DNA of 64,000 bases, taken from Stieleria varia. GTDB taxonomy: Bacteria > Planctomycetota > Planctomycetia > Pirellulales > Pirellulaceae. Below, one piece after another: positions 14,880-50,244 of this stretch (positions within the stretch are counted from its first letter, which is position 1; the number at the start of each line of letters is the position of its first letter). A program made the translations under genes and the position numbers. The stretch spans positions 2,976,001 through 3,040,000 of the forward strand of contig NZ_CP151726.1 of assembly GCF_038443385.1 (NCBI RefSeq), given 5' to 3'. The notes beneath the pieces were generated by a model. The model did not search any database. It saw only the letters and a program-made list of their open reading frames with translations, and was not told where the DNA came from.

Positions 14880-16133
14880 ATGCAAAGAGTTCGTTCGTTT
14901 TCTTCCCGACCGGGTTTCACCTTGGTGGAACTGTTGGTCGTCATCGCCATCATTGGCATCCTCGTGGGTTTGTTGTTGCCTGCCGTTCAGGCTGCCCGCG
15001 AGGCTGCGCGACGCATGTCGTGCAGTAACAATTTCAAGCAGATCGGACTTGGAATCCAGAACTATCACGGTTCATTCAAGCAGTTGCCTACGAACGGAAC
15101 GGGTACCAAACAGGTTCCCTCCATGACCGATGCAAGCAACCAGAGTAATCGTCTGTTTGTCAGTTGGTTGGTTCCTATTCTGCCGTACATCGAGCAACAA
15201 GCTTTGTGGGAGCAGATCGCGAATCCCAGTACACAAGTCACCGCTGGCCAGACGTTGCCTGCTAGCGTGAACGGCGCATGGAATGCCATGGGTCCTGTGC
15301 CTTGGATCACCACCTACGTGCCATGGGTCACCCAAGTCCCGACGTACCGTTGTCCCAGTGACTCGGGTCAAGCTCTTGGTCCTGGACAATTCGCACGGAC
15401 GAACTATGCATGTTCAGTCGGTGATGCGAACGACCGTGGTCACAATGGCGGCATCAACGACTTCGGTTTCTGGGGCAATTTCAACAATCGTGACGAAGAC
15501 TGGGCGGTGACACGAGCACGCTCCGCACAACGCGGATTCTTTTGGAATCGTAATGAGTCCAAGTTCCGAGATGTTCTGGACGGGCTTTCCAACACCATTG
15601 CGGCTGGCGAAGTCAACACGTCGGGCGGTAAGCGTGAAATCAGCGCGGATTTTGTTCGCAACATCACGACCATGATCAATGTCAACGATACCGTCTTGAC
15701 TCCAGCTCGGTGCAAGGAAGGTGCTCACATTGATCCTCTACGACCTCAGTTCTACGATCCAACCGCATCGGTTAGCGCTACCTTGTCAGAGGGCAAGCAC
15801 TGTCGTTGGGCTGATTCGCGTCCCTATTACTCCGCCTTCCACACCATCCTGCCGCCAAACTCTCCCAGTTGCGTGGCTGCTGCGAATGATGGAAATCACT
15901 CCGGCGTGATCTCAACGGCGGGAAGCCGTCACTCCGGTGGTGCTCACATCCTGATGGGCGATGGTGCTGTGGTCTTCATCACGGACAGCGTCGACACGGG
16001 TAATCTCGAGAGTGTGACCGTCGGTCGTGACGCTCCCGCTTTGCCAGCTGGCACCGCAAGCCCTTACGGACTTTGGGGTTCACTGGGCACACGTGACATG
16101 AAAGAAGTCATCCAAGAACAGTTGAATCAATAG
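14880..16133 (+). CDS. DUF1559 protein with prepilin-type N-terminus
   Basis: This 417-residue protein begins with a type IV pilin-like leader: basic [10 protein letters not shown], then [33 protein letters not shown] (about 12-45), matching the prepilin cleavage motif G|FTLVE with Glu at +5. The downstream DUF1559 region has the usual [17 protein letters not shown] and the C-terminal [19 protein letters not shown] block. Such proteins are present in very many copies in planctomycetes, and their assembled form and job are not settled. It is probably processed by a prepilin peptidase and displayed across the cell envelope. A strong terminator follows the stop. Confidence 0.93.
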
Positions 16134-41244: not shown

Positions 41245-41971
41245 CAAGTCGTCAGTGTTGCTGAAAGCGCCACTGGATGGACACGAGTGCAACGAAAACA
41301 TGTGGGTTAGGAGGCAAGTTCAATTAGCGCTCGCAGCGCTAGCCCGGATTATTCACGCGACTCAATACGGTCATCGCAATACGTTTGAACGAAACGACTT
41401 GCGCGGATTGGCACGAAAACAGTCTGCGCATATCAGCCGCCACGCGATAGCGTCCGGTTCTTGCACCCATACTCGGGAACCGGACGCTATCGCGTGCCGG
41501 CTGATGAATAATCCGGGCTAGAACGCGCCAACCACGAGCGCAAAAAAAACGCGTCCGAGGGGTTGGGGCAAAACCTCTCGAACGCTGGCGAATGCGGCGA
41601 ACCGCTTTCGTTGTCGAAATGATAGAGCAAAGTTGGTTCGAAGTCGAGTCTAAAGTGAAAACTTCATTCATCTCTCTATAGGTACACCTGTTCCACCTAT
41701 CCACTCTAACGGCGGTGTGATTTCCTCTGAGCCGTTGTTTTTCTCAATTGTTCATTGATTGTTTCGATCACTCGGGAACTTCCTGATTCGTCGTCGCAGC
41801 GCCCTCGATGCGTCTCGTTGTCGCACCGAACATCGCCATGGCTGTGAAACTCATGCGTGTAGCGTTAACGAGAAATGGTCAGCCTTTGAATGAGGCTGAC
41901 CGGCGTATTATTTCTCATAAGTATCCGGGGCGTCCGATTCTTGATGGATTCCCGTAACCCTCGTTGGTCGA
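41245..41971. other. Spacer with one CTAG hairpin element and a terminator-like hairpin
   Basis: No gene is seen. The spacer contains the 183-bp element at 41339-41521 and a 9-bp hairpin, GGTCAGCCT/AGGCTGACC (41877-41901), about 70 bases after the stop of the minus-strand low-complexity gene, where it could end that transcript. The stretch 41522-41876 has no repeat or frame I can support. Confidence 0.6.
41339..41521 (+). mobile_element. CTAG hairpin element, copy 1 (183 bp)
   Basis: It is bounded by CTAGCCCGGATTATTCA and its exact inverse TGAATAATCCGGGCTAG. The right half is a long stem: ACGCGATAGCGTCCGGTTC around 41452 pairs with GAACCGGACGCTATCGCGT. The left ~90 bp are not self-paired. 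No coding capacity. It is about 85% identical to copies at 43187-43370 and 47747-47931. Confidence 0.88.
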
Positions 41972-42967
41972 TTAGACGCGGTCAAACTGCAAGCCACCGT
42001 TAGTGGAACCGTCGAGTTGAAAGGTAAAGCCGTTCGATTTTTCGCTCAGGGATCCCGCCATTTGCTGAAGGTCATTGGAGCGAACAAGCGTCAAGCGACC
42101 TCCATCCATTCGGTACTGCCCGTCGAACTGTGTCGTTTTTCCCGCACTGTCCCTCACGCTCCAGCTGAATTTGCCGTCTTGGTCCAGCGACAACGTGATG
42201 GTGACTTTGCTAGGCAGCGTGGCTTGCCAAGTTCCCACGAACGGCGACGCTGCGGCGGTGCTCGTTGCCGGTGAGAAAGTCGGTACCCCACTGTCGACTG
42301 CCGCGTTCGTCGGTTCGGGGGATGCGTTGGCGGACGTCAGCGATGCAAGTGCCGCCAAAGCAGAGGCCTCCGGATTTTCCGTGGGATTTGTCGCAGCGGG
42401 CTGGACAGTTGTTTGTTGAGCAGGTTGCTGCGCCGGCTGAGCCGATGGCTGGGTCGGCTGCGTTTGGCGAAGCGTTTGCGAACGTTGGTTCGGCGTCGAG
42501 TTCGTCGAGTTCGTCATGCCAGCCGAAGCAGCGAAGGCTTGACGCGATGTCGGAGCCGAGTTAGGCACCACTTGATTCGATGATGCGGTCGCAAACTGCT
42601 GGCCTTGAGGTGCCGACTGTTGCACGACCGGGCCGTTTTGGACGGGCTGTGTCTGCATCGGCTGGCCCAGATGAGTGGGCTGGCCGTAAGTGATCGGCTG
42701 TCCCTGTGTGTTCGGTTGTGCATAGGTGATCGGTTGTGCATAGGAGCTCGGCTGTGCATAAGAAACACTGGAGCCGTATGAAATCGGAGCAGGTGATCCG
42801 TAGCTGTTGCCGTAGCGAACCGAATGACCGCTGCTGTACGTGGCTGCAGGTCGCGAGTATCCCGAGAAACCGCCGCGGCCGCCGCATGCGGAGGCGTCAG
42901 AGATTTGGCCGACGGTGGCAGCTGCGAGAGTGGTCAGAGCGACGATGGATTTGATGGATCGTTTCAT
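41972..42967 (-). CDS. Exported low-complexity protein with small C-terminal beta domain
   Basis: The 331-residue protein has a signal peptide (SIVALTTLAAATVGQISDASA) and then a long region (about 30-215) poor in charged residues and rich in Gln, Pro, Ser, Thr and Tyr, with short repeats such as YAQPITYAQP and YGQPTHLGQP. The C-terminal ~95 residues look folded: PFVGTWQATLPSKVTITLSLDQDGKFSWSV ... GQYRMDGGRLTLV, the pattern of small lipocalin-like or copper-resistance-NlpE-like barrels. It may be a surface or matrix protein; function unknown. A possible terminator hairpin lies ~70 bases after the stop. Confidence 0.75.
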   Translation of the reverse strand: MKRSIKSIVALTTLAAATVGQISDASACGGRGGFSGYSRPAATYSSGHSVRYGNSYGSPAPISYGSSVSYAQPSSYAQPITYAQPNTQGQPITYGQPTHLGQPMQTQPVQNGPVVQQSAPQGQQFATASSNQVVPNSAPTSRQAFAASAGMTNSTNSTPNQRSQTLRQTQPTQPSAQPAQQPAQQTTVQPAATNPTENPEASALAALASLTSANASPEPTNAAVDSGVPTFSPATSTAAASPFVGTWQATLPSKVTITLSLDQDGKFSWSVRDSAGKTTQFDGQYRMDGGRLTLVRSNDLQQMAGSLSEKSNGFTFQLDGSTNGGLQFDRV

Positions 42968-43063
42968 GGCTTGGTCCTGATGGAGGGTGTTTTGGCTGGT
43001 ATGGGAAGCACTTGACTTGCCTCCTCTGCAGATCCAAGCGAACCCGTGGGCGATCTGTTACAG

Positions 43064-43110
43064 AAAAAAAATCAGGGAGCGTCGATTGGGAAATCGGCCG
43101 CTCCCTGATC
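43064..43110 (-). terminator. Terminator-like hairpin reading leftwards
   Basis: Read on the minus strand, ATCAGGGAGCG pairs with CGCTCCCTGAT around an inner CGATT/AATCG stem and is followed by eight T. It sits just upstream of the low-complexity gene and so would end leftward transcripts arriving from the protease side. Confidence 0.75.
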
Positions 43111-43186
43111 CGTCAACCAAGCCATTGGTGTCGGTTTGTTCTGCCGGGTGTTTTGGGAGACTGCTGACCTTGTGAGCCGCATGGCG

Positions 43187-43370
43187 CTAGCCGCGGATTA
43201 TTCATCAGCCGGCACGCGATAGCGTCCGGTTTCCGATTACAGGCGTGAGAACCGGACGCTATCGCGTGGCGGCTGATCTGCGCAGACTGTTTTCGTGTCA
43301 ATCCGCGTAAACCGTTTGGTGCAAACGTATTGCGAAGACTGTAGTCAGTGGCGTGAATAATCCGGGCTAG
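43187..43370 (-). mobile_element. CTAG hairpin element, copy 2 (184 bp, inverted)
   Basis: Same family as 41339-41521 but in the opposite orientation. Its flanks rejoin to ...GGCGCTAG|CCGCGGGCC..., a sequence like the repeats around 37270 and 43400, so it was inserted at the CTAG of an older intergenic repeat with CTAG duplicated. Confidence 0.88.
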
Positions 43371-43406
43371 CCGCGGGCCTCATGGTGTCGAGGAAAGCCT
43401 TCGAAG

Positions 43407-43598
43407 CCCGTGGCTAGCGCCATCGGCTCACAGGCCCGTGGCTAGCGCCATCGGCTCACAGGCCCGTGGCTAGGCCATCGGCTCACAGGCCCGTGGCTAG
43501 GCCATCGGCTCACAGGCCCGTGGCTAGGCCATCGGCTCACAGGCCCGTGGCTAGGCCATCGGCTCACAGGCCCGTGGCTAGCGCCATCGGCTCAAAGG
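43407..43598. repeat. Seven-unit 27-28 bp tandem repeat
   Basis: Units start at 43407, 43435, 43463, 43490, 43517, 43544 and 43571. Consensus is CCCGTGGCTAG(C)GCCATCGG followed by CTCACAGG; four inner units share the same one-base deletion, which points to recent expansion of a variant. There are no spacers, so it is not a CRISPR array. It lies 46 bases from the 3' end of the protease gene. Confidence 0.92.
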
Positions 43599-43643
43599 TA
43601 CAGCGCAACATGACCAAGTCAGCAGTCTCCATCGGGGGCCCGA

Positions 43644-44831
43644 TCACTCGGCGAGCCAAGAAGCCAGGGTTTCTTCGGCTGATTTTTCTGTTGTTTTTGG
43701 CGTCAGCTCCTTGTTCATCGCTGCGGCGAGTCGGCCGACGTAGTCCACGGTGCTCTCCAAGGCTTCGTCACTGGCTGTGGCATCCAATTTGGCGACGAAA
43801 AACACGATGTAGCCTTCGGTTTCGTTCTTTTCGATCGCCCAAGCCCCCAGCTTGGTCGCCGAACTCTGACGCATCAGACGCATCATCAGGTCGGCATCCG
43901 GGGCGGTTTGGGACGTCAAGACGGTGGACCAGACGCGGCGAATGTCGGCTCGCTCGTGATATTCGGTATCCTTGGCGACAAAGACGGCCTGCGTATTGGT
44001 GCCGATTTTGCGGTCGATTTGGTAGTGCCCGCTGGTGTGTTTGGTGTACGGCATGCCGGTTTCGTCCAACAGCACCTTGCTGGGCAGCGGAGCACTTTTC
44101 CAGGGGCTTGCGATGATGTTTCGGATCTCGGTGACGTCCACACAGTAGCTGACCAGGGGGCTCGATGGCGAAAACGATTGAGCGATGGCGATGAGCTTTC
44201 CGTCGGCGTCCACGATCGGGCCGCCGCTGTCGCCCGGTTTGATCAAGGTCTGGGTTTCGACGGCCAAGAACTCGTGTTCACCATGGTTGGACTTGAATTT
44301 TTTGTCGTAAACCGATCGCACCGTCCCGTCGGTGTAGACCCACAAGATGTCACCATCGCCAGGGTTTCCGATCAAATCAATGTCGGCACCGGGAGTCGTG
44401 CTGGCATCAGCCAAGTCCATGGGGACCGCGTCACCGGGGACATTGGGTAATTGAATCAACGCCAAATCGCGTTTGCGATCCACGGCGACGACGTTGCCTT
44501 GGATGCCCAATTTCAGAATGTTGGACAGATAGTGTTTACGCTTGACTTGCGGTTTACCGTCTTTGACGTCTGCGAAGAACACGACGGCTTTGCGGCTTTC
44601 GCCGACCACGTGCGCGTTGGTGACGATCAGCTTTTTTTCGGCGTCGATGTAGACACCTGTGCCGGTGGAAGTCTGATTTTCCGCGTCGCTGGTGATGATC
44701 CAGGCGGTGCTTCGCAGGATCGTTTGGTAATCCCCTGCTGACGCGATGCCCGCGAAGGACGAGGATGCGGCAAGCAGACAGACGGCATACAACTGGCGGC
44801 GAATCAACTCGCCGGGTTTGAAATGGAACAC
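43644..44831 (-). CDS. Exported trypsin-like serine protease (S1C/DegP-type domain, no PDZ)
   Basis: The 395-residue protein starts at a GTG preceded by GAGG nine bases away. A signal peptide (about 11-32, ending GIASA) is followed by a trypsin-like domain with catalytic His74 in VTNAHVVG, Asp122 in KRDLALIQL and Ser202 in IKPGDSGGPIVD. No PDZ domain follows; the last ~150 residues are an unassigned alpha/beta part with an acidic Lys-rich tail. The longer open frame to 45053 runs into the dispersed repeat and contains no better start. It is probably a periplasmic quality-control or processing protease. Confidence 0.87.
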   Translation of the reverse strand: MFHFKPGELIRRQLYAVCLLAASSSFAGIASAGDYQTILRSTAWIITSDAENQTSTGTGVYIDAEKKLIVTNAHVVGESRKAVVFFADVKDGKPQVKRKHYLSNILKLGIQGNVVAVDRKRDLALIQLPNVPGDAVPMDLADASTTPGADIDLIGNPGDGDILWVYTDGTVRSVYDKKFKSNHGEHEFLAVETQTLIKPGDSGGPIVDADGKLIAIAQSFSPSSPLVSYCVDVTEIRNIIASPWKSAPLPSKVLLDETGMPYTKHTSGHYQIDRKIGTNTQAVFVAKDTEYHERADIRRVWSTVLTSQTAPDADLMMRLMRQSSATKLGAWAIEKNETEGYIVFFVAKLDATASDEALESTVDYVGRLAAAMNKELTPKTTEKSAEETLASWLAE

Positions 44832-44970
44832 GGCAGATACCTCAACGTGAATGGCTTGGTTGACACCCTGTTCGTCAAACGACAGGTGGACTGTCAGACC
44901 AAGCGAGCACGTTGAGGCGATGTTACACGACTTTTTTGAAAGCAAGCCGGAATAGATTGGTTGGCGACCA

Positions 44971-45381
44971 CATAGACGCGTCTCTCGGGACGCGAATACT
45001 TTCGAGCCTCGGGGGACGTGCGGATAATAAGTGTCGCGAAATCCACGTAGCAATCATCGCTTCGCGTGATATTGGTAACGAGATTGGACACTCATTCTCC
45101 AAACCGACCACGAAGTGGTTAAACAACATAGCCTGGGATCGCGGCGAAGCCAGCGCACCCCGGGTTAGCTCCGATAGCTGCGGAGCAGCGACAGCATACA
45201 GCATGGGGTGCCAACCCCATGTTTCTGCAAGCGAGTCCGCCCAGAAGCTGCGGAGCAGCGACAGCATAGAACGTTTGGTGTAGCCTACAGCACGCTACAG
45301 CACGCGGTGGTCCGGATGCAATCTGTCGCCGCTCCGCGGCTTGTTGGCGGCGTCGGGCGGTGTTCACCTGGGGCTCGCGCC
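44971..45381. repeat. Long dispersed repeat, left part of the copy split by the IS
   Basis: This ~410-bp stretch aligns over nearly its full length with 54597-54979. Shared landmarks are TGTCGCGAAATCCACGTAGC, CAACATAGCCTGGG, GCTGCGGAGCAGCGACAGC and CGCCGCTCCGCGGCTTGTTG. This copy has an extra 69 bp because AGCTGCGGAGCAGCGACAG is doubled (45176 and 45245). The repeat continues after the IS at 46902-46960. It explains the short open frames seen here. Confidence 0.85.
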
Positions 45382-46901
45382 CTCTTTATCCTACACATCT
45401 TTTTTTCTACCCTTTGGTCGGTTGGAGTCGACAAAACACTTCCCCAGGGATCGGGACAATGGCAAGCTGGATAAAAGATGAGCTTCGGACTTTGGATTTA
45501 GGTGATAAGCGGCGGGAGCGACGTGTCGCCCTGATTCTTGAGCAACAGTCCGAGATTGCCGAATCTACGCCCAGTGCGTGTAAGGACAACGCGAAACTTG
45601 AGGCAACCTACCGTTTGGTAAACAATCGAAATATCCCTGTGGACGGCATTCTCAAAGCCCACAATGATGCTTCAATCGCTCGCACCGCCGAGCAACCGGT
45701 CGTCATCCTATCCCAGGATACCACCGTCTGTGATCTCACCAAACCACAGCGGCAAGTCCGCGGTGCCGGGCCGTTGGAGAGTCGGGACAAATTCGGTTTT
45801 TTTCTGCACCCACTCTATGCGATCACCGAGGATGGACTTGTTCTGGGCACGGTCGATCAGTGCATTTGGACGCGTGATGACATCAAGACGGATCTGAACA
45901 ACACAGAAAAAGTCAACCTGCGACGCCAGCAAGCCTTTGAAGAAAAAGAAAGCTACCGTTGGCTGGAGATGTTTCAAAGTGGCGAGCAAATCGCACTGGC
46001 TCATCCCCAGACGCACTACATTGGCGTCTCGGACAGCGAGTCTGATATTTATGAATTGCTAGCGCAAACCGATGATCTGGCGGCCAACTATGACTACGTC
46101 ATTCGTGGTTGCCAAGATCGCACAGTGCTCGATCAAGGTGAAACCAGGACGATCTCCGAAGTGATGCAGGAGACGGAGTTTCAGTTTCAGCGTGAAATCG
46201 ATTTAAGCGAGCGAAAGTCATTAATTATCGGAGAAACGCGTGCTCGTCGGATGAGTCGCAGTGCCCGGGTAGCATCGATTTCGATTCGTGCCCGGCAGGT
46301 CACTTTACGCGGCCCGGCACGCCCTGGTGGTCGTGCTCCCGACGTGACGATCAATGTTGTCGAGGCCGTCGAAACGGACGCACCCGAAGGCGAAGAGCCG
46401 ATCCGCTGGTTACTTTTTACATCGCTCCCCATTTCGACGATCTCGGAAATCGAACGAGTCATTGGTTCTTATTGTCGCCGCTGGGACATCGAACTGTATT
46501 TCAAGACGCTCAAGAGCGGCATGAAGATTGAGAAGCTGAAGTACGAGCAGATCGATACATACGTGCGTGCGGTGACGCTTTTGATGATCACTGGGTTTCG
46601 AGTCGAGCAACTCAAGACCGCCAATCGAGTTTGTCCGCAAGTCAGTTGCGAGCGTTTCTACGATGCCAGTTTTTGGAAGGCGACGTACCTCGTGGTCTTT
46701 GCCGGACGTGAGGTTCCCGAAACACCTCCCACGATCGGCGAATGGATGCTGGTGGTCGCCAAGCTTGGCGGCTATCTGGACAAGAAAGGCCAAGGCCCGC
46801 CCGGCTCCACAACGATCTGGCGAGGAATGCAGAAAATCGAGTCGTACCACGAAGCTTTCCTCGCCTACAAAAGGCTCATCGGAGATGTGTAGGATAAAGA
46901 G
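45382..46901 (+). mobile_element. Complete IS4-family insertion sequence, 1520 bp
   Basis: The ends are a perfect 18-bp inverted repeat: CTCTTTATCCTACACATC at 45382-45399 and its inverse at 46884-46901. The flanks carry a 10-bp direct duplication GGCTCGCGCC (45372-45381 and 46902-46911). The empty site is present at about 54966-54986, where the same sequence reads CCTGGGGCTCGCGCCCCAGG without interruption. The target is itself a palindrome. One transposase gene fills the element, its stop codon lying inside the right end. Confidence 0.95.
45459..46892 (+). CDS. IS4-family transposase
   Basis: The 477-residue protein begins MASWIKDELRTLDLGDKRRERR, the transposase DNA-binding domain seen on Tn5-like enzymes (about 1-60). 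Catalytic residues can be placed by the family pattern: first Asp in LSQDTTVCD (near 90), second Asp in GVSDSESD (near 192), and Glu in YCRRWDIELYFKTLK (near 346), which fits the IS4 signature Y-(2)-R-(3)-E-(6)-K exactly. The frame is uninterrupted, so the enzyme may be active. ATG 45459 is chosen since the longer frame runs back through the inverted repeat into flanking DNA. The stop TAG lies in the right inverted repeat. Confidence 0.94.
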   Translation: MASWIKDELRTLDLGDKRRERRVALILEQQSEIAESTPSACKDNAKLEATYRLVNNRNIPVDGILKAHNDASIARTAEQPVVILSQDTTVCDLTKPQRQVRGAGPLESRDKFGFFLHPLYAITEDGLVLGTVDQCIWTRDDIKTDLNNTEKVNLRRQQAFEEKESYRWLEMFQSGEQIALAHPQTHYIGVSDSESDIYELLAQTDDLAANYDYVIRGCQDRTVLDQGETRTISEVMQETEFQFQREIDLSERKSLIIGETRARRMSRSARVASISIRARQVTLRGPARPGGRAPDVTINVVEAVETDAPEGEEPIRWLLFTSLPISTISEIERVIGSYCRRWDIELYFKTLKSGMKIEKLKYEQIDTYVRAVTLLMITGFRVEQLKTANRVCPQVSCERFYDASFWKATYLVVFAGREVPETPPTIGEWMLVVAKLGGYLDKKGQGPPGSTTIWRGMQKIESYHEAFLAYKRLIGDV

Positions 46902-47045
46902 GGCTCGCGCCCCAGGCTGTATGCTGTCGTCGCATCCGCGACTGAGGGGTTAGCTTTTCACGTTCCGAGAGGCTCGGCTACGTGAAACCCGCTTAGAACG
47001 CGAGTTCAACCCGGCATCAACACTAGACCATGCGTTGGATTCGAT
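46902..47045. repeat. Right part of the split dispersed repeat
   Basis: From 46902 the sequence resumes the dispersed repeat (CCCAGGCTGTATGCTGTCG, GCATCCGCGACTGAGGGG), matching 54977-55018 and ending near 46950. The remainder to the peroxiredoxin stop shows nothing recognisable. Confidence 0.75.
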
Positions 47046-47633
47046 TCACTTCAAATCCTTGATGACTTCGGCGATCTTTTCGGGGTCTTGTTTCGCGTTC
47101 ACCTTCTCGTCTTTGTACGCGATCTTGCCGTCCAGGCCGATCACGAACGTCCAGCGTTTGGCGGTGACGTTGCGGGTCAGCGATTCATTTTTGCCCAAGA
47201 TCAACTTCTCGACCGTTTTGGCACCGAGGCTCACTGGGACGCCGAACGCGTTGGCGACTTTACCTTCCGTGTCGGCCAACAGGGCGAAGTTCAGATCGTG
47301 TGCTTTTTTGAACAGTTTGTGGTTTTCCACGGTGTCGCCACTGACGCCGACGACCATGACGTCTTTCGCAGCCAGCTCGTCCATGCGATCTCGGTACGCA
47401 CACGCTTGCGCCGTGCAGCCGCCGGTCATGTCGGCGGGATAGAAGTACAGCACGATGATCTTTTTGCCGACATGATCTGTCGACTTCCAAGTTTCACCCG
47501 AATCATCCTTCGCCTCAAACTTCGGCGCCTCATCACCGACCGACAGCGAGACCGCATCATCGGCCGAGATCGCGGGAGCAGACAGAACCAGAGCCAGCAA
47601 CGAGAAAAGAGTCAACGCAATTGAGTAACGCAT
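47046..47633 (-). CDS. Exported peroxiredoxin, Bcp/AhpC-TSA type
   Basis: It reduces peroxides through a reactive cysteine. The 195-residue protein has a signal peptide (MRYSIALTLFSLLALVLSAPAISA), unusual for this normally cytoplasmic group, then the standard fold: GDEAPKFEAKDDSGETW, VLYFYPADMTGGCTAQACAYRD with peroxidatic Cys73 and a second Cys five residues later (Cys78), DVMVVGVSGDTVENHKLF, and RWTFVIGLDGKIAYKDEKVN. The Cys-x4-Cys spacing is that of atypical 2-Cys Bcp enzymes. ATG 47633 was chosen as the start of the signal peptide. The gene lies between the IS-bearing repeat and a CTAG element. Confidence 0.92.
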   Translation of the reverse strand: MRYSIALTLFSLLALVLSAPAISADDAVSLSVGDEAPKFEAKDDSGETWKSTDHVGKKIIVLYFYPADMTGGCTAQACAYRDRMDELAAKDVMVVGVSGDTVENHKLFKKAHDLNFALLADTEGKVANAFGVPVSLGAKTVEKLILGKNESLTRNVTAKRWTFVIGLDGKIAYKDEKVNAKQDPEKIAEVIKDLK

Positions 47634-48055
47634 GGGTGCGGTCCAAGGAGGGGAAAGGGATGCAGAGGCAGGGAAGGCCAACCTGATCATGATATCTCCG
47701 ATCCGAGAGTCAAAAAGATGGAAGACAGAAATAGTCAACAGCCCGCTAGGCGCGGATGATTCACGCGACTCACTATCGTCTTCGCAATACGTTTGCACAA
47801 AACAGCTTACGCGGATTGGCACGAAAGCAGGCTGCGCCTATCAGCCGGCACGCGATAGCGTCCGGTTCTCACGCCTGTCATCGGGAACCGGACGCTATCG
47901 CGTGCCGGCTGATGAATCACCCGCGCCTAGCGGCTTGTGAGCACAGCTCTTTCGCTTCTTGTGATGCAGGTTAAGCTGAGCGGCCCTGTGATCAGCAGTC
48001 CACCACAGCTCTTGCTCTGCTGCCGCTTCGTTGCCGGACCTACACTGCCTGGATA
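47634..48055. other. Spacer with CTAG element copy 3
   Basis: No gene is seen. The spacer holds the 185-bp element at 47747-47931, inserted at the end (GTCAACAGCCCGCTAG) of a sequence matching the right end of the hairpin at 37361-37487. The final ~120 bp before the ClC gene should contain its promoter. Confidence 0.6.
47747..47931 (+). mobile_element. CTAG hairpin element, copy 3 (185 bp)
   Basis: It is bounded by CTAGGCGCGGATGATTCA and TGAATCACCCGCGCCTAG, with the same internal stem as copies 1 and 2. Its ends changed together away from the other copies (GGCGCGG instead of CCCGG) while staying complementary, as expected if pairing of the ends is under selection or both ends are corrected together. 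Confidence 0.88.
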
Positions 48056-49939: not shown

Positions 49940-50244
49940 AGTCGTGTCGTATCATCAAGGTGCAGAATCGAGAATGATCCCTCATCACGCGAACCAACAT
50001 AAAACGCCCTGAGCCGCGACGCGTCAGCGGCCGGGTAAACCAAGTCGCTACTAACACTTGCGTCGTAGTAACAGACACCCATGCAATATCCGGGCTAGCC
50101 CAGCGATTTTGAGGGAGTTTGGATCGCGCGAAGGAAGTTCCGGGAGGGAACCTTCGCTTGGGATGGCAAGAATGTGTTGTCGAACCCTCCTGCTTGCCAT
50201 TCACTTTTGTTGCTGCGCCCAGGGCATCGAGCGATCATTGATTT

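Follow-up and report, generated by a model that had tools for sequence, protein, structure and literature searches.

What are the three short repeats that recur at CTAG in a 64,000-nucleotide stretch of the Stieleria varia genome (the window), and which enzyme could have placed them there? The elements measure ~175 bp each between their CTAG copies, or 183 bp (copy 1), 184 bp (copy 2) and 185 bp (copy 3) with both CTAGs included, and are laid out as follows:

41339 to 41342, no strand: CTAG (4 bp), left target-duplication copy, copy 1
41343 to 41355, plus strand: terminal inverted repeat CCCGGATTATTCA at the left of copy 1, the same sequence as at the ends of a congeneric IS1380 (L325)
41356 to 41432, plus strand: left half of copy 1, without a long stem
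41433 to 41460, plus strand: copy 1 hairpin (REPIN-like, 28-bp arms), left arm
41477 to 41504, plus strand: copy 1 hairpin (REPIN-like, 28-bp arms), right arm
41505 to 41517, plus strand: terminal inverted repeat TGAATAATCCGGG at the right of copy 1
41518 to 41521, no strand: CTAG, right target-duplication copy, copy 1
43187 to 43190, no strand: CTAG, target duplication, copy 2
43191 to 43366, minus strand: body of copy 2, inverted
43191 to 43204, minus strand: end CCGCGGATTATTCA of copy 2
43205 to 43232 and 43249 to 43276, minus strand: hairpin arms of copy 2
43354 to 43366, minus strand: end TGAATAATCCGGG of copy 2
43367 to 43370, no strand: CTAG, target duplication, copy 2
47746 to 47749, no strand: CTAG, target duplication, copy 3
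47750 to 47926, plus strand: body of copy 3
47750 to 47763, plus strand: end GCGCGGATGATTCA of copy 3
47841 to 47868 and 47885 to 47912, plus strand: hairpin arms of copy 3
47913 to 47926, plus strand: end TGAATCACCCGCGC of copy 3
47927 to 47930, no strand: CTAG, target duplication, copy 3
50082 to 50098, minus strand: lone end CTAG-CCCGGATATTGCA, the exact terminal sequence of the 12 intact IS1380 elements of this genome

All three copies have related ends (terminal inverted repeats of 13-14 bp, CCCGGATTATTCA type), a half of ~77 nt that forms no long stem, and a hairpin of 28 bp adjoining the other end. An earlier note on this DNA had described shared ends, an unpaired left half, a right-hand stem and CTAG on both sides, all of which are seen in every copy, and had assigned them no coding capacity, which is borne out by a length of 183-185 bp into which a transposase would not fit. 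Its coordinates are exact for copies 1 and 2 and one base off for copy 3 (47746-47930 rather than 47747-47931). Folded as single-stranded DNA, copy 1, the only copy to which these values apply, reaches -63.1 kcal/mol against -28.0 +/- 3.2 for shuffles (z -11). We conclude, on sequence comparison, that the repeats are very probably MITEs whose movement would have depended on an IS1380-family transposase acting in trans, consistent with the non-autonomous, CTAG-targeted family proposed in the earlier note.

The elements share their ends with IS1380 insertion sequences (PF13701, NF033539). A full-length IS with the same terminal sequence, for which the earlier note had recommended a search, occurs in a congener (L325, protein named Stieleria): it is 1680 bp long, has ends identical in 13/13 bp to the window element, encodes an intact 477-aa IS1380 transposase and is flanked by TTAG...TTAG in direct orientation. 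No intact IS with exactly window-type ends was found in the S. varia genome; at position 5122706 (L187) a perfect end CTAGCCCGGATTATTCA leads into a remnant that shares 78% identity with the L325 IS over 319 nt, and a decayed 1755-bp IS1380 (L188) has ends CCCGAATTATTCA and flanks TCAG/TTCA without a matching duplication. The 12 near-identical intact IS1380 copies resident in this genome all lie at CTAG (12/12), with ends CCCGGATATTGCA that agree with the window element at 10/13 bp, and elements bearing these resident ends occur at L206:10759-10942, with the window-type hairpin, and at 15569-15752. Another genus of the same family (G041) has IS1380 copies with ends CCCGGATTATGCA, 10/10 at CTAG, and a Phycisphaerae MAG (L304) carries an IS1380 with a broken frame and ends CCCGGATTATTCG, whose contig also holds a miniature element. 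The two kinds of element also share the CTAG/TTAG duplication and, in part, the intergenic target repeats, but the window element lacks a transposase gene and is ~175 bp rather than ~1.7 kb long. Its body has no convincing similarity to the IS elements compared beyond the terminal ~16-23 bp; because only the ends are shared, the MITE is not a simple internal deletion of any of these, and that origin was rejected. For IS1247, also of the IS1380 family, a published table gives a 5-bp duplication (PMC3281130).

The CTAG is a direct 4-bp target duplication, as the earlier note had expected. It stands on both sides of 55/85 elements, and in at least six cases both sides carry a non-CTAG direct repeat (L325, L096 and L129, and C51, C176 and C205 of G052 among the matches listed). 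These cases include TTAG/TTAG and CTAA/CTAA, which place the tetranucleotide outside the inverted repeat, contrary to the alternative that CTAG is part of the element, and on the same grounds an IS200/IS605-type element, which makes no target duplication, was rejected. One non-CTAG pair is inverted (L097). CTAG on one side only was seen in 27 own-genome rows, eight of which have the tetranucleotide displaced by a one-base-longer end and one of which (L194) pairs two ends 1391 bp apart by chance; the remainder are read as putative later mutations.

The element body is composite, with the REPIN-like hairpin (28-bp arms) at one end and the ~77-nt segment at the other. The hairpin module resembles a pair of inverted REPs and is also present without IS ends in two congeners (G009 and G010). 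No both-sides changes were found in 1809 cells of the hairpin arms, and only 4 of 871 end cells had changed on both sides (shuffles 1.9 +/- 1.3; reached by 53/500); the ends' covariation score of 0.052 is reached by 17/500 shuffles. Variant GCGCGG ends, surveyed in 71 rows, are mostly one-sided: 11 rows have them on the right alone, 2 on the left alone and 2 at both ends, 53 have none, and 3 are unclassified or belong to a third type. The compensating end change reported for copy 3 therefore holds there but does not extend to the family, and covariation as a rule, in hairpin or ends, was rejected. An Rfam scan of 18 loci gave no match at gathering level; between 36000 and 52000 of the window one match exceeded the cut-off (Acido-Lenti-1, outside the elements), and weak matches include MIR1151 on the copy-3 hairpin (37 of 90 bits).

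Such a hairpin could point to a different enzyme, a Y1 (HUH) transposase recognising the folded single strand and cutting at CTAG, comparable to RAYTs acting on GTAG-tagged REPs. The genome has 27 Y1_Tnp matches, CTAG is similar to the GTAG tag, the module has the look of an inverted REP pair and occurs independently in congeners, and many tyrosine transposase genes with flanking repeats are described in R. baltica (PMC3733652). We nevertheless consider this mechanism improbable. None of the 27 Y1 loci has window-type ends at <=3 mismatches within 1.5 kb, so RAYT/REPIN was rejected as driver; no RAYT could be connected with the hairpin module, and DDE elements of 1.7 kb are delimited by the same ends. 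The tetranucleotide is duplicated directly, something Y1 elements are not known to do, and the hairpin and ends do not covary. Compared with REP/REPIN systems as described (PMC3733652), the window element differs in its ends, its target duplication, its probable DDE-type driver and its lack of a GTAG tag. One Y1 locus (L084) has end matches at 4 mismatches, one of which is the terminus of L188, the decayed IS1380 beside it.

Less probable still is a MITE of the IS5 group, the driver suggested in the earlier note. CTAG fits YTAR, the target of that group, but the full-length elements identified with such ends code for IS1380 transposases, and among the 18 other DDE_Tnp_1 (IS4/IS5-type) loci read in S. 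varia none has window-type ends at its boundaries (11 further matches lie outside this set); an IS5-type driver was rejected on this count.

The family is dispersed and intergenic. Within the window, pattern CTAGCCCGGATTATTCA has 5 matches at <=3 mismatches against 0.07 expected, and a genome-wide search for the ends returned 296 at <=2 mismatches and 0 for the reversed control pattern; 66/71 window-type elements are 183-185 bp long. Element-free sites exist for both elements and IS. When flanks were joined, 26/97 (IS: 10/12) matched uninterrupted single-CTAG repeats, none matched a repeat with no CTAG and one matched a repeat with two. Shuffled flanks also matched, in 9, 4 and 7 of 97, because the target repeats resemble one another, and two of the 26 (L012, L022) match via another element's end. 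The earlier note had flanks rejoining into intergenic repeats at copies 2 and 3; this holds for copy 2 (3 mismatches in 36) but not for copy 3, for which the searched part of the genome gave no match at <=4 of 36. The copy 1 element is absent from the corresponding spacer in 11/11 congeners read, with both neighbours recognisable in five, so that the copies are not simply fixed at orthologous positions. An origin by duplicating or recombining intergenic repeats, with no transposition involved, to which the other repeats adjoining many copies might point, is very improbable given differing flanks, boundaries exact at CTAG, the element-free sites and the congeneric spacers that lack the element.

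With the element removed in silico, 4/71 sites fall inside an ORF >=200 aa, compared with 321/400 random and 117/290 CTAG places (14 elements with short flanks were left out); the count was redone in this way because filled sites (0/85) are blind to disrupted genes. The density of CTAG is 4.6-fold higher outside long ORFs: the motif is rare within genes and common in intergenic palindromic repeats of this genome, and insertions are thereby steered between genes. Its scarcity alone leaves the low in-gene count unexplained, so a further factor, selection or a palindrome preference, must be at work. REP-targeting IS elements likewise insert at the symmetry axis of intergenic palindromes; PMC1525189 names five families of these, and IS1380 is not one of them.

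By analogy with DDE-family chemistry, an IS1380 transposase supplied in trans would bind both ends, excise the element and join it to a staggered cut at CTAG, duplicating four bases, with related tetranucleotides such as TTAG or CTAA as rare alternative targets. The sub-family's own driver would have been an IS1380 with CCCGGATTATTCA ends that has since decayed here. The piggyBac superfamily likewise duplicates four TA-centred bases (TTAA, in rare cases CTAA or TTAG) and its ends often begin CCC, but it is eukaryotic and the likeness is limited to target and ends; IS1380 served as outgroup in that study (PMC10813416). QMITE2 of Coxiella (~190 bp) is similar in size, inverted and direct repeats, intergenic non-coding location and stable fold, and differs from the window element in the latter's putative IS1380 driver, 4-bp CTAG target and REPIN-like hairpin; the terms IS1380 and CTAG are absent from the text of the bacterial MITE review that describes it (PMC10969869).

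Elements of ~180 bp with window-type ends also occur in several phyla with another fold, which covaries and is absent from Rfam, on contigs assigned to Nitrospira, Myxococcota, Lysobacterales, Krumholzibacteriia and Planctomycetota. This core is one long hairpin with covarying stems and conserved unpaired loops, its apex reading TCCTCGAC-[stem-loop]-GCCTNCGG, and further conserved loops are visible by eye at mid-stem and base. A model of the full element (R1) matched own-genome MITEs equally on both strands, i.e. via the ends, and a model without ends (R2) was therefore used. In the seven core-holding genomes searched (of 14; incomplete drafts), PF13701 was found over cut-off in none (two weaker matches), and 21 Y1 matches, present in 7/7, had no core nearby (best E 0.23) and, for the 13-15-bp ends tried, only two matches, both unpaired and with 2 mismatches; IS1380 and Y1 genes were accordingly rejected as drivers of the core elements. 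We lean slightly towards a cross-phylum class of ~180-bp miniature elements defined by window-type ends and a CTAG target and carrying exchangeable folded payloads. The REPIN-like hairpin would then be the payload in Stieleria and some other planctomycetes, and the core would act as RNA or single-stranded DNA and would ride with several terminal repeats, not only the IS1380 type.

A likely driver can now be named for a very abundant repeat of this genome. IS1380, better known as a carrier of resistance genes, would thereby gain many non-autonomous dependants whose palindromic 4-bp target is nearly strict, a CTAG habit that parallels the TTAA habit of piggyBac. The 4.6-fold denser CTAG outside long ORFs shows one route by which a transposon avoids genes, and the wider class, if real, would make testable why a miniature transposon keeps an RNA-like structure.

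All three CTAG-bounded elements described in the earlier note are present on re-reading of the window sequence, the third lying one base away from its original coordinates:

Copy 1, 41339-41521: bounded by CTAG, 175 bp without the CTAGs
Copy 2, 43187-43370, inverted: bounded by CTAG, 176 bp without the CTAGs
Copy 3, 47746-47930: bounded by CTAG, 177 bp without the CTAGs

Each comprises a half of ~77 nt and a hairpin with 28-bp arms, and copy 1 as single-stranded DNA folds to -63.1 kcal/mol against -28.0 +/- 3.2 in shuffles. The 17-bp end has five matches in the window at up to three mismatches (0.07 expected). A lone end, CTAG-CCCGGATATTGCA, at 50082-50098 is exactly that of 12 intact IS1380 copies of this genome and has no partner in the window at up to two mismatches. 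Directly 3' of copy 1, a motif GCGCAAAAAAAACGCGTCC..GGTTGGGGCAAAACC (41536-41590) is kept at 86-92% identity in the 11 congeners read and is possibly a leader or regulatory RNA. Copy 2 adjoins a tandem array (43390-43500) of the unit GGCCCGTGGCTAG(CG)CCATCGGCTCACA, with one CTAG per unit. The window also holds an Rfam Acido-Lenti-1 RNA (45176-45221, minus strand, 38.1 bits; gathering 37) and a 510-aa ORF (45360-46892, also in locus L045) that matches DDE_Tnp_1 weakly; six matches in the genome, this one among them, have equal scores.

We infer that the window family very probably consists of MITEs driven by IS1380 transposases and duplicating CTAG. The end occurs at up to one mismatch in 21 of 80 genomes, Stieleria varia included. 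A same-genus genome (G003) carries a 1680-bp element with the exact 13-bp ends of the window element, an intact 477-aa ORF and TTAG on both flanks. In another genome, G041, CTAG-CCCGGATTATGCA bounds ten 1.7-kb elements. All 12 resident IS copies (12/12) are bounded by CTAG-CCCGGATATTGCA. Compared with one of their number over 1741 bp, they show no more than seven differences, apart from a count of 84 in one copy that is an artefact of a 1-bp shift. All three proteins put to the test match the IS1380 transposase family, at 5.5e-94 or better for PF13701 and 7.9e-81 or better for NF033539. The IS1380 protein from a same-genus genome carries the name Stieleria sp. ICT_E10.1. The own genome also retains a 3' remnant that has a perfect end and aligns with the G003 element at 78% identity over 319 nt, and a decayed 1755-bp IS1380 with CCCGAATTATTCA ends and no matching duplication (TCAG/TTCA). 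Two elements at one locus (L206:10759-10942 and 15569-15752) end like the resident intact IS1380, and the former also has the window-type hairpin; from this pair ends appear to have been exchanged between elements. The IS5-type driver suggested in the earlier note was not borne out: the full-length elements found with these ends are IS1380, and none of the 18 other DDE_Tnp_1 loci read is bounded by these ends. Y1_Tnp was likewise rejected as driver, with these ends at 0 of 27 own-genome loci (up to three mismatches). Those 27 Y1_Tnp (RAYT/IS200-like) matches (L061-L087) include near-identical ones, and no link between them and the element ends was found.

As CTAG is its own reverse complement, a CTAG/CTAG pair by itself fits both a target duplication and a CTAG that belongs to the inverted repeat. 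The proposed 4-bp target duplication is upheld by sites where the tetranucleotide is not CTAG, which are direct repeats: TTAG/TTAG at the G003 element (L325), CTAA/CTAA at two loci (L096, L129) and, among the matches listed, CTGG, CTAA and CTCG pairs in genome G052; the sole inverted non-CTAG pair is at L097. With ends at up to one mismatch, CTAG lies on both sides in 38 own-genome rows and 42 from other genomes, and on a single side in 27 and 16, eight of the 27 reflecting a tetranucleotide displaced by a one-base-longer end; a few rows (L194, L139, L100, L265) are chance pairs at IS distance. Loci picked by an exact CTAG end are uninformative on how often CTAG bounds both sides. CTAG/CTAG bounds 55 of the 85 elements extracted from the own genome.

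A search for empty sites did find element-free places. Flanks of 97 insertions (85 elements, 12 IS) were joined around one CTAG and compared with 1.33 Mb of own-genome sequence, overlaps included, at up to 4/36 mismatches. An uninterrupted place was matched by 26 of 97 (10 of the 12 IS), two of the 26 running through another element's end. Joins with no CTAG gave 0 matches, with two CTAGs 1, with CTA 4 and with CTAGC 3; shuffling the right flanks gave 9, 4 and 7 of 97. For the copy-1 spacer, 13 congeners were searched and the 11 with a match beside it were read: blastn detects the element at that position in none of the 11, both neighbours are recognisable in five (L405-L409), and the spacers are too diverged for a base-level empty site.

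The 9.72-Mb genome (one contig) contains 155 + 141 end matches at up to two mismatches, and none to a reversed control pattern. Among the 85 complete elements, which come from part of the genome, 71 have the window hairpin. Nine of the 14 others belong to a 169-bp sibling family (L042, L049, L345 and others) with CTAG, the same ends and a different hairpin, GACGCGTAAGCGAGGGAT. One locus, L377, has three closely spaced window-type elements (402-588, 953-1135 and 1500-1682). Further CTAG-bounded repeat families, often adjoining one another, occur in the flanks of L037, L007, L008, L010, L011 and L038, with ends TGCATCRTCCRGTCTTGAT and TGGTCTGGGACAGC and short CCGTGGGCC..GGCCCACGG palindromes. 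Mean pairwise divergence is 11.7% (67 copies aligned); the family is therefore old and not a single recent burst. Column identity is 98.7% and 95.6% in the hairpin arms and 96.1% and 93.7% in the ends, and lower in the left half (90.7%) and loop (84.7%). The hairpin has no both-sides changes in 1809 cells and the ends four in 871 (shuffles 1.9 +/- 1.3); the compensating ends reported earlier for copy 3 are not borne out as a rule, and no good sign of selection on pairing is seen in the window family. The hairpin module, which we take to be a REPIN-like unit that became captured between IS1380 ends, also stands without such ends (up to three mismatches) in genome G009 (L418, L419) and forms an array in G010 (L417). 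G013 (L104, L423, L424) has related composite elements.

A wider class of elements was encountered across phyla. One exact 17-bp end occurs in at least 118 stretches in named genomes, mostly metagenome-assembled, the matches listed including Planctomycetota, Nitrospira, Myxococcota, several proteobacterial groups, Acidobacteria, Armatimonadota and others. From these stretches and relatives' loci we took sixty short elements (68-295 bp, 160-193 bp in 38; L096 and L114 are the same element) in 34 sequence clusters. Thirteen, from several clusters and including six Nitrospira relatives, align and fold as one long hairpin with apex TCCTCGAC-stem-loop-GCCTNCGG; model R2 was built on their central 114 nt without the ends. 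Searched in 82 loci, one of them (L303) a training member, R2 matched in the right places at L231 (9.7e-12; from the genome that also supplied training member L283), L288 (5.1e-9), L279 (8.7e-8), L251 (9.4e-7), L207 (2.0e-4) and L235 (0.039), of which L251, L288 and L235 were known when the motif was framed and L279 and L207 were not; L261 and L302, judged similar by eye, gave no match. R2 found nothing credible in the window and 15 own-genome stretches (best E 0.43) and no own-genome match at E <= 1e-4, a threshold reached in 14 of 294 Planctomycetota genomes.

Over 45 distinct sequences, training included, 143 core cells are changed on both sides yet paired, against 54 +/- 5.6 in shuffles that ignore relatedness (0/500 reach it) and 20-53 with slid partners, in an alignment fitted to the model and so biased towards pairing; core cells are paired in 85.6% vs 64.4%, and further pair types (32) are not above shuffles (30.9). 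These ~180-bp CTAG-bounded elements (L207-L324, L437-L466; for example L322:7189-7372, L320:4878-5060 and L460:1039-1218) come from several phyla and share the conserved covarying fold. Ends resembling CTAG-CCCGGATTATTCA stand on at least one side in 19 of 30 core loci read (13 at up to 3/17 mismatches, six at 4-5), in four (L439, L442, L453, L459) inspection by eye shows different repeats at CTAG-like sites, and the remaining seven have no clear terminal repeat. Rfam gave no gathering-level match in 18 loci, eight with the core, and in nine more core loci only a tmRNA-like match outside the element (E <= 0.1). PF13701 exceeded its cut-off in none of seven core-bearing genomes tried, nor did the core lie near Y1 genes of those tried.

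Across 20 stretches of 20 kb at even spacing, CTAG density is 0.51 per kb in ORFs of at least 120 aa, a crude gene proxy, and 2.33 per kb elsewhere, a 4.6-fold difference; for seven other palindromic tetranucleotides the ratio is 0.7-1.2. Once the element is taken out, 4 of 71 sites fall in an ORF of at least 200 aa (14 elements with short flanks skipped), compared with 117 of 290 CTAG places and 321 of 400 random places. CTAG preference therefore halves the risk of hitting genes, and the remainder of the avoidance must come from selection or from a preference for palindromic repeats. By eye, seven of the ten G041 IS1380 copies lie in REP-like palindromes (CAGCCGC..CTAG..CGGTTC); PMC1525189 describes insertion into REPs for five other IS families. 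We recognised no published description of the window family in the open-licence literature, which is not proof of absence. A MITE is a known sort of element; what is new here is the probable driver, the target and the composite REPIN-like body.
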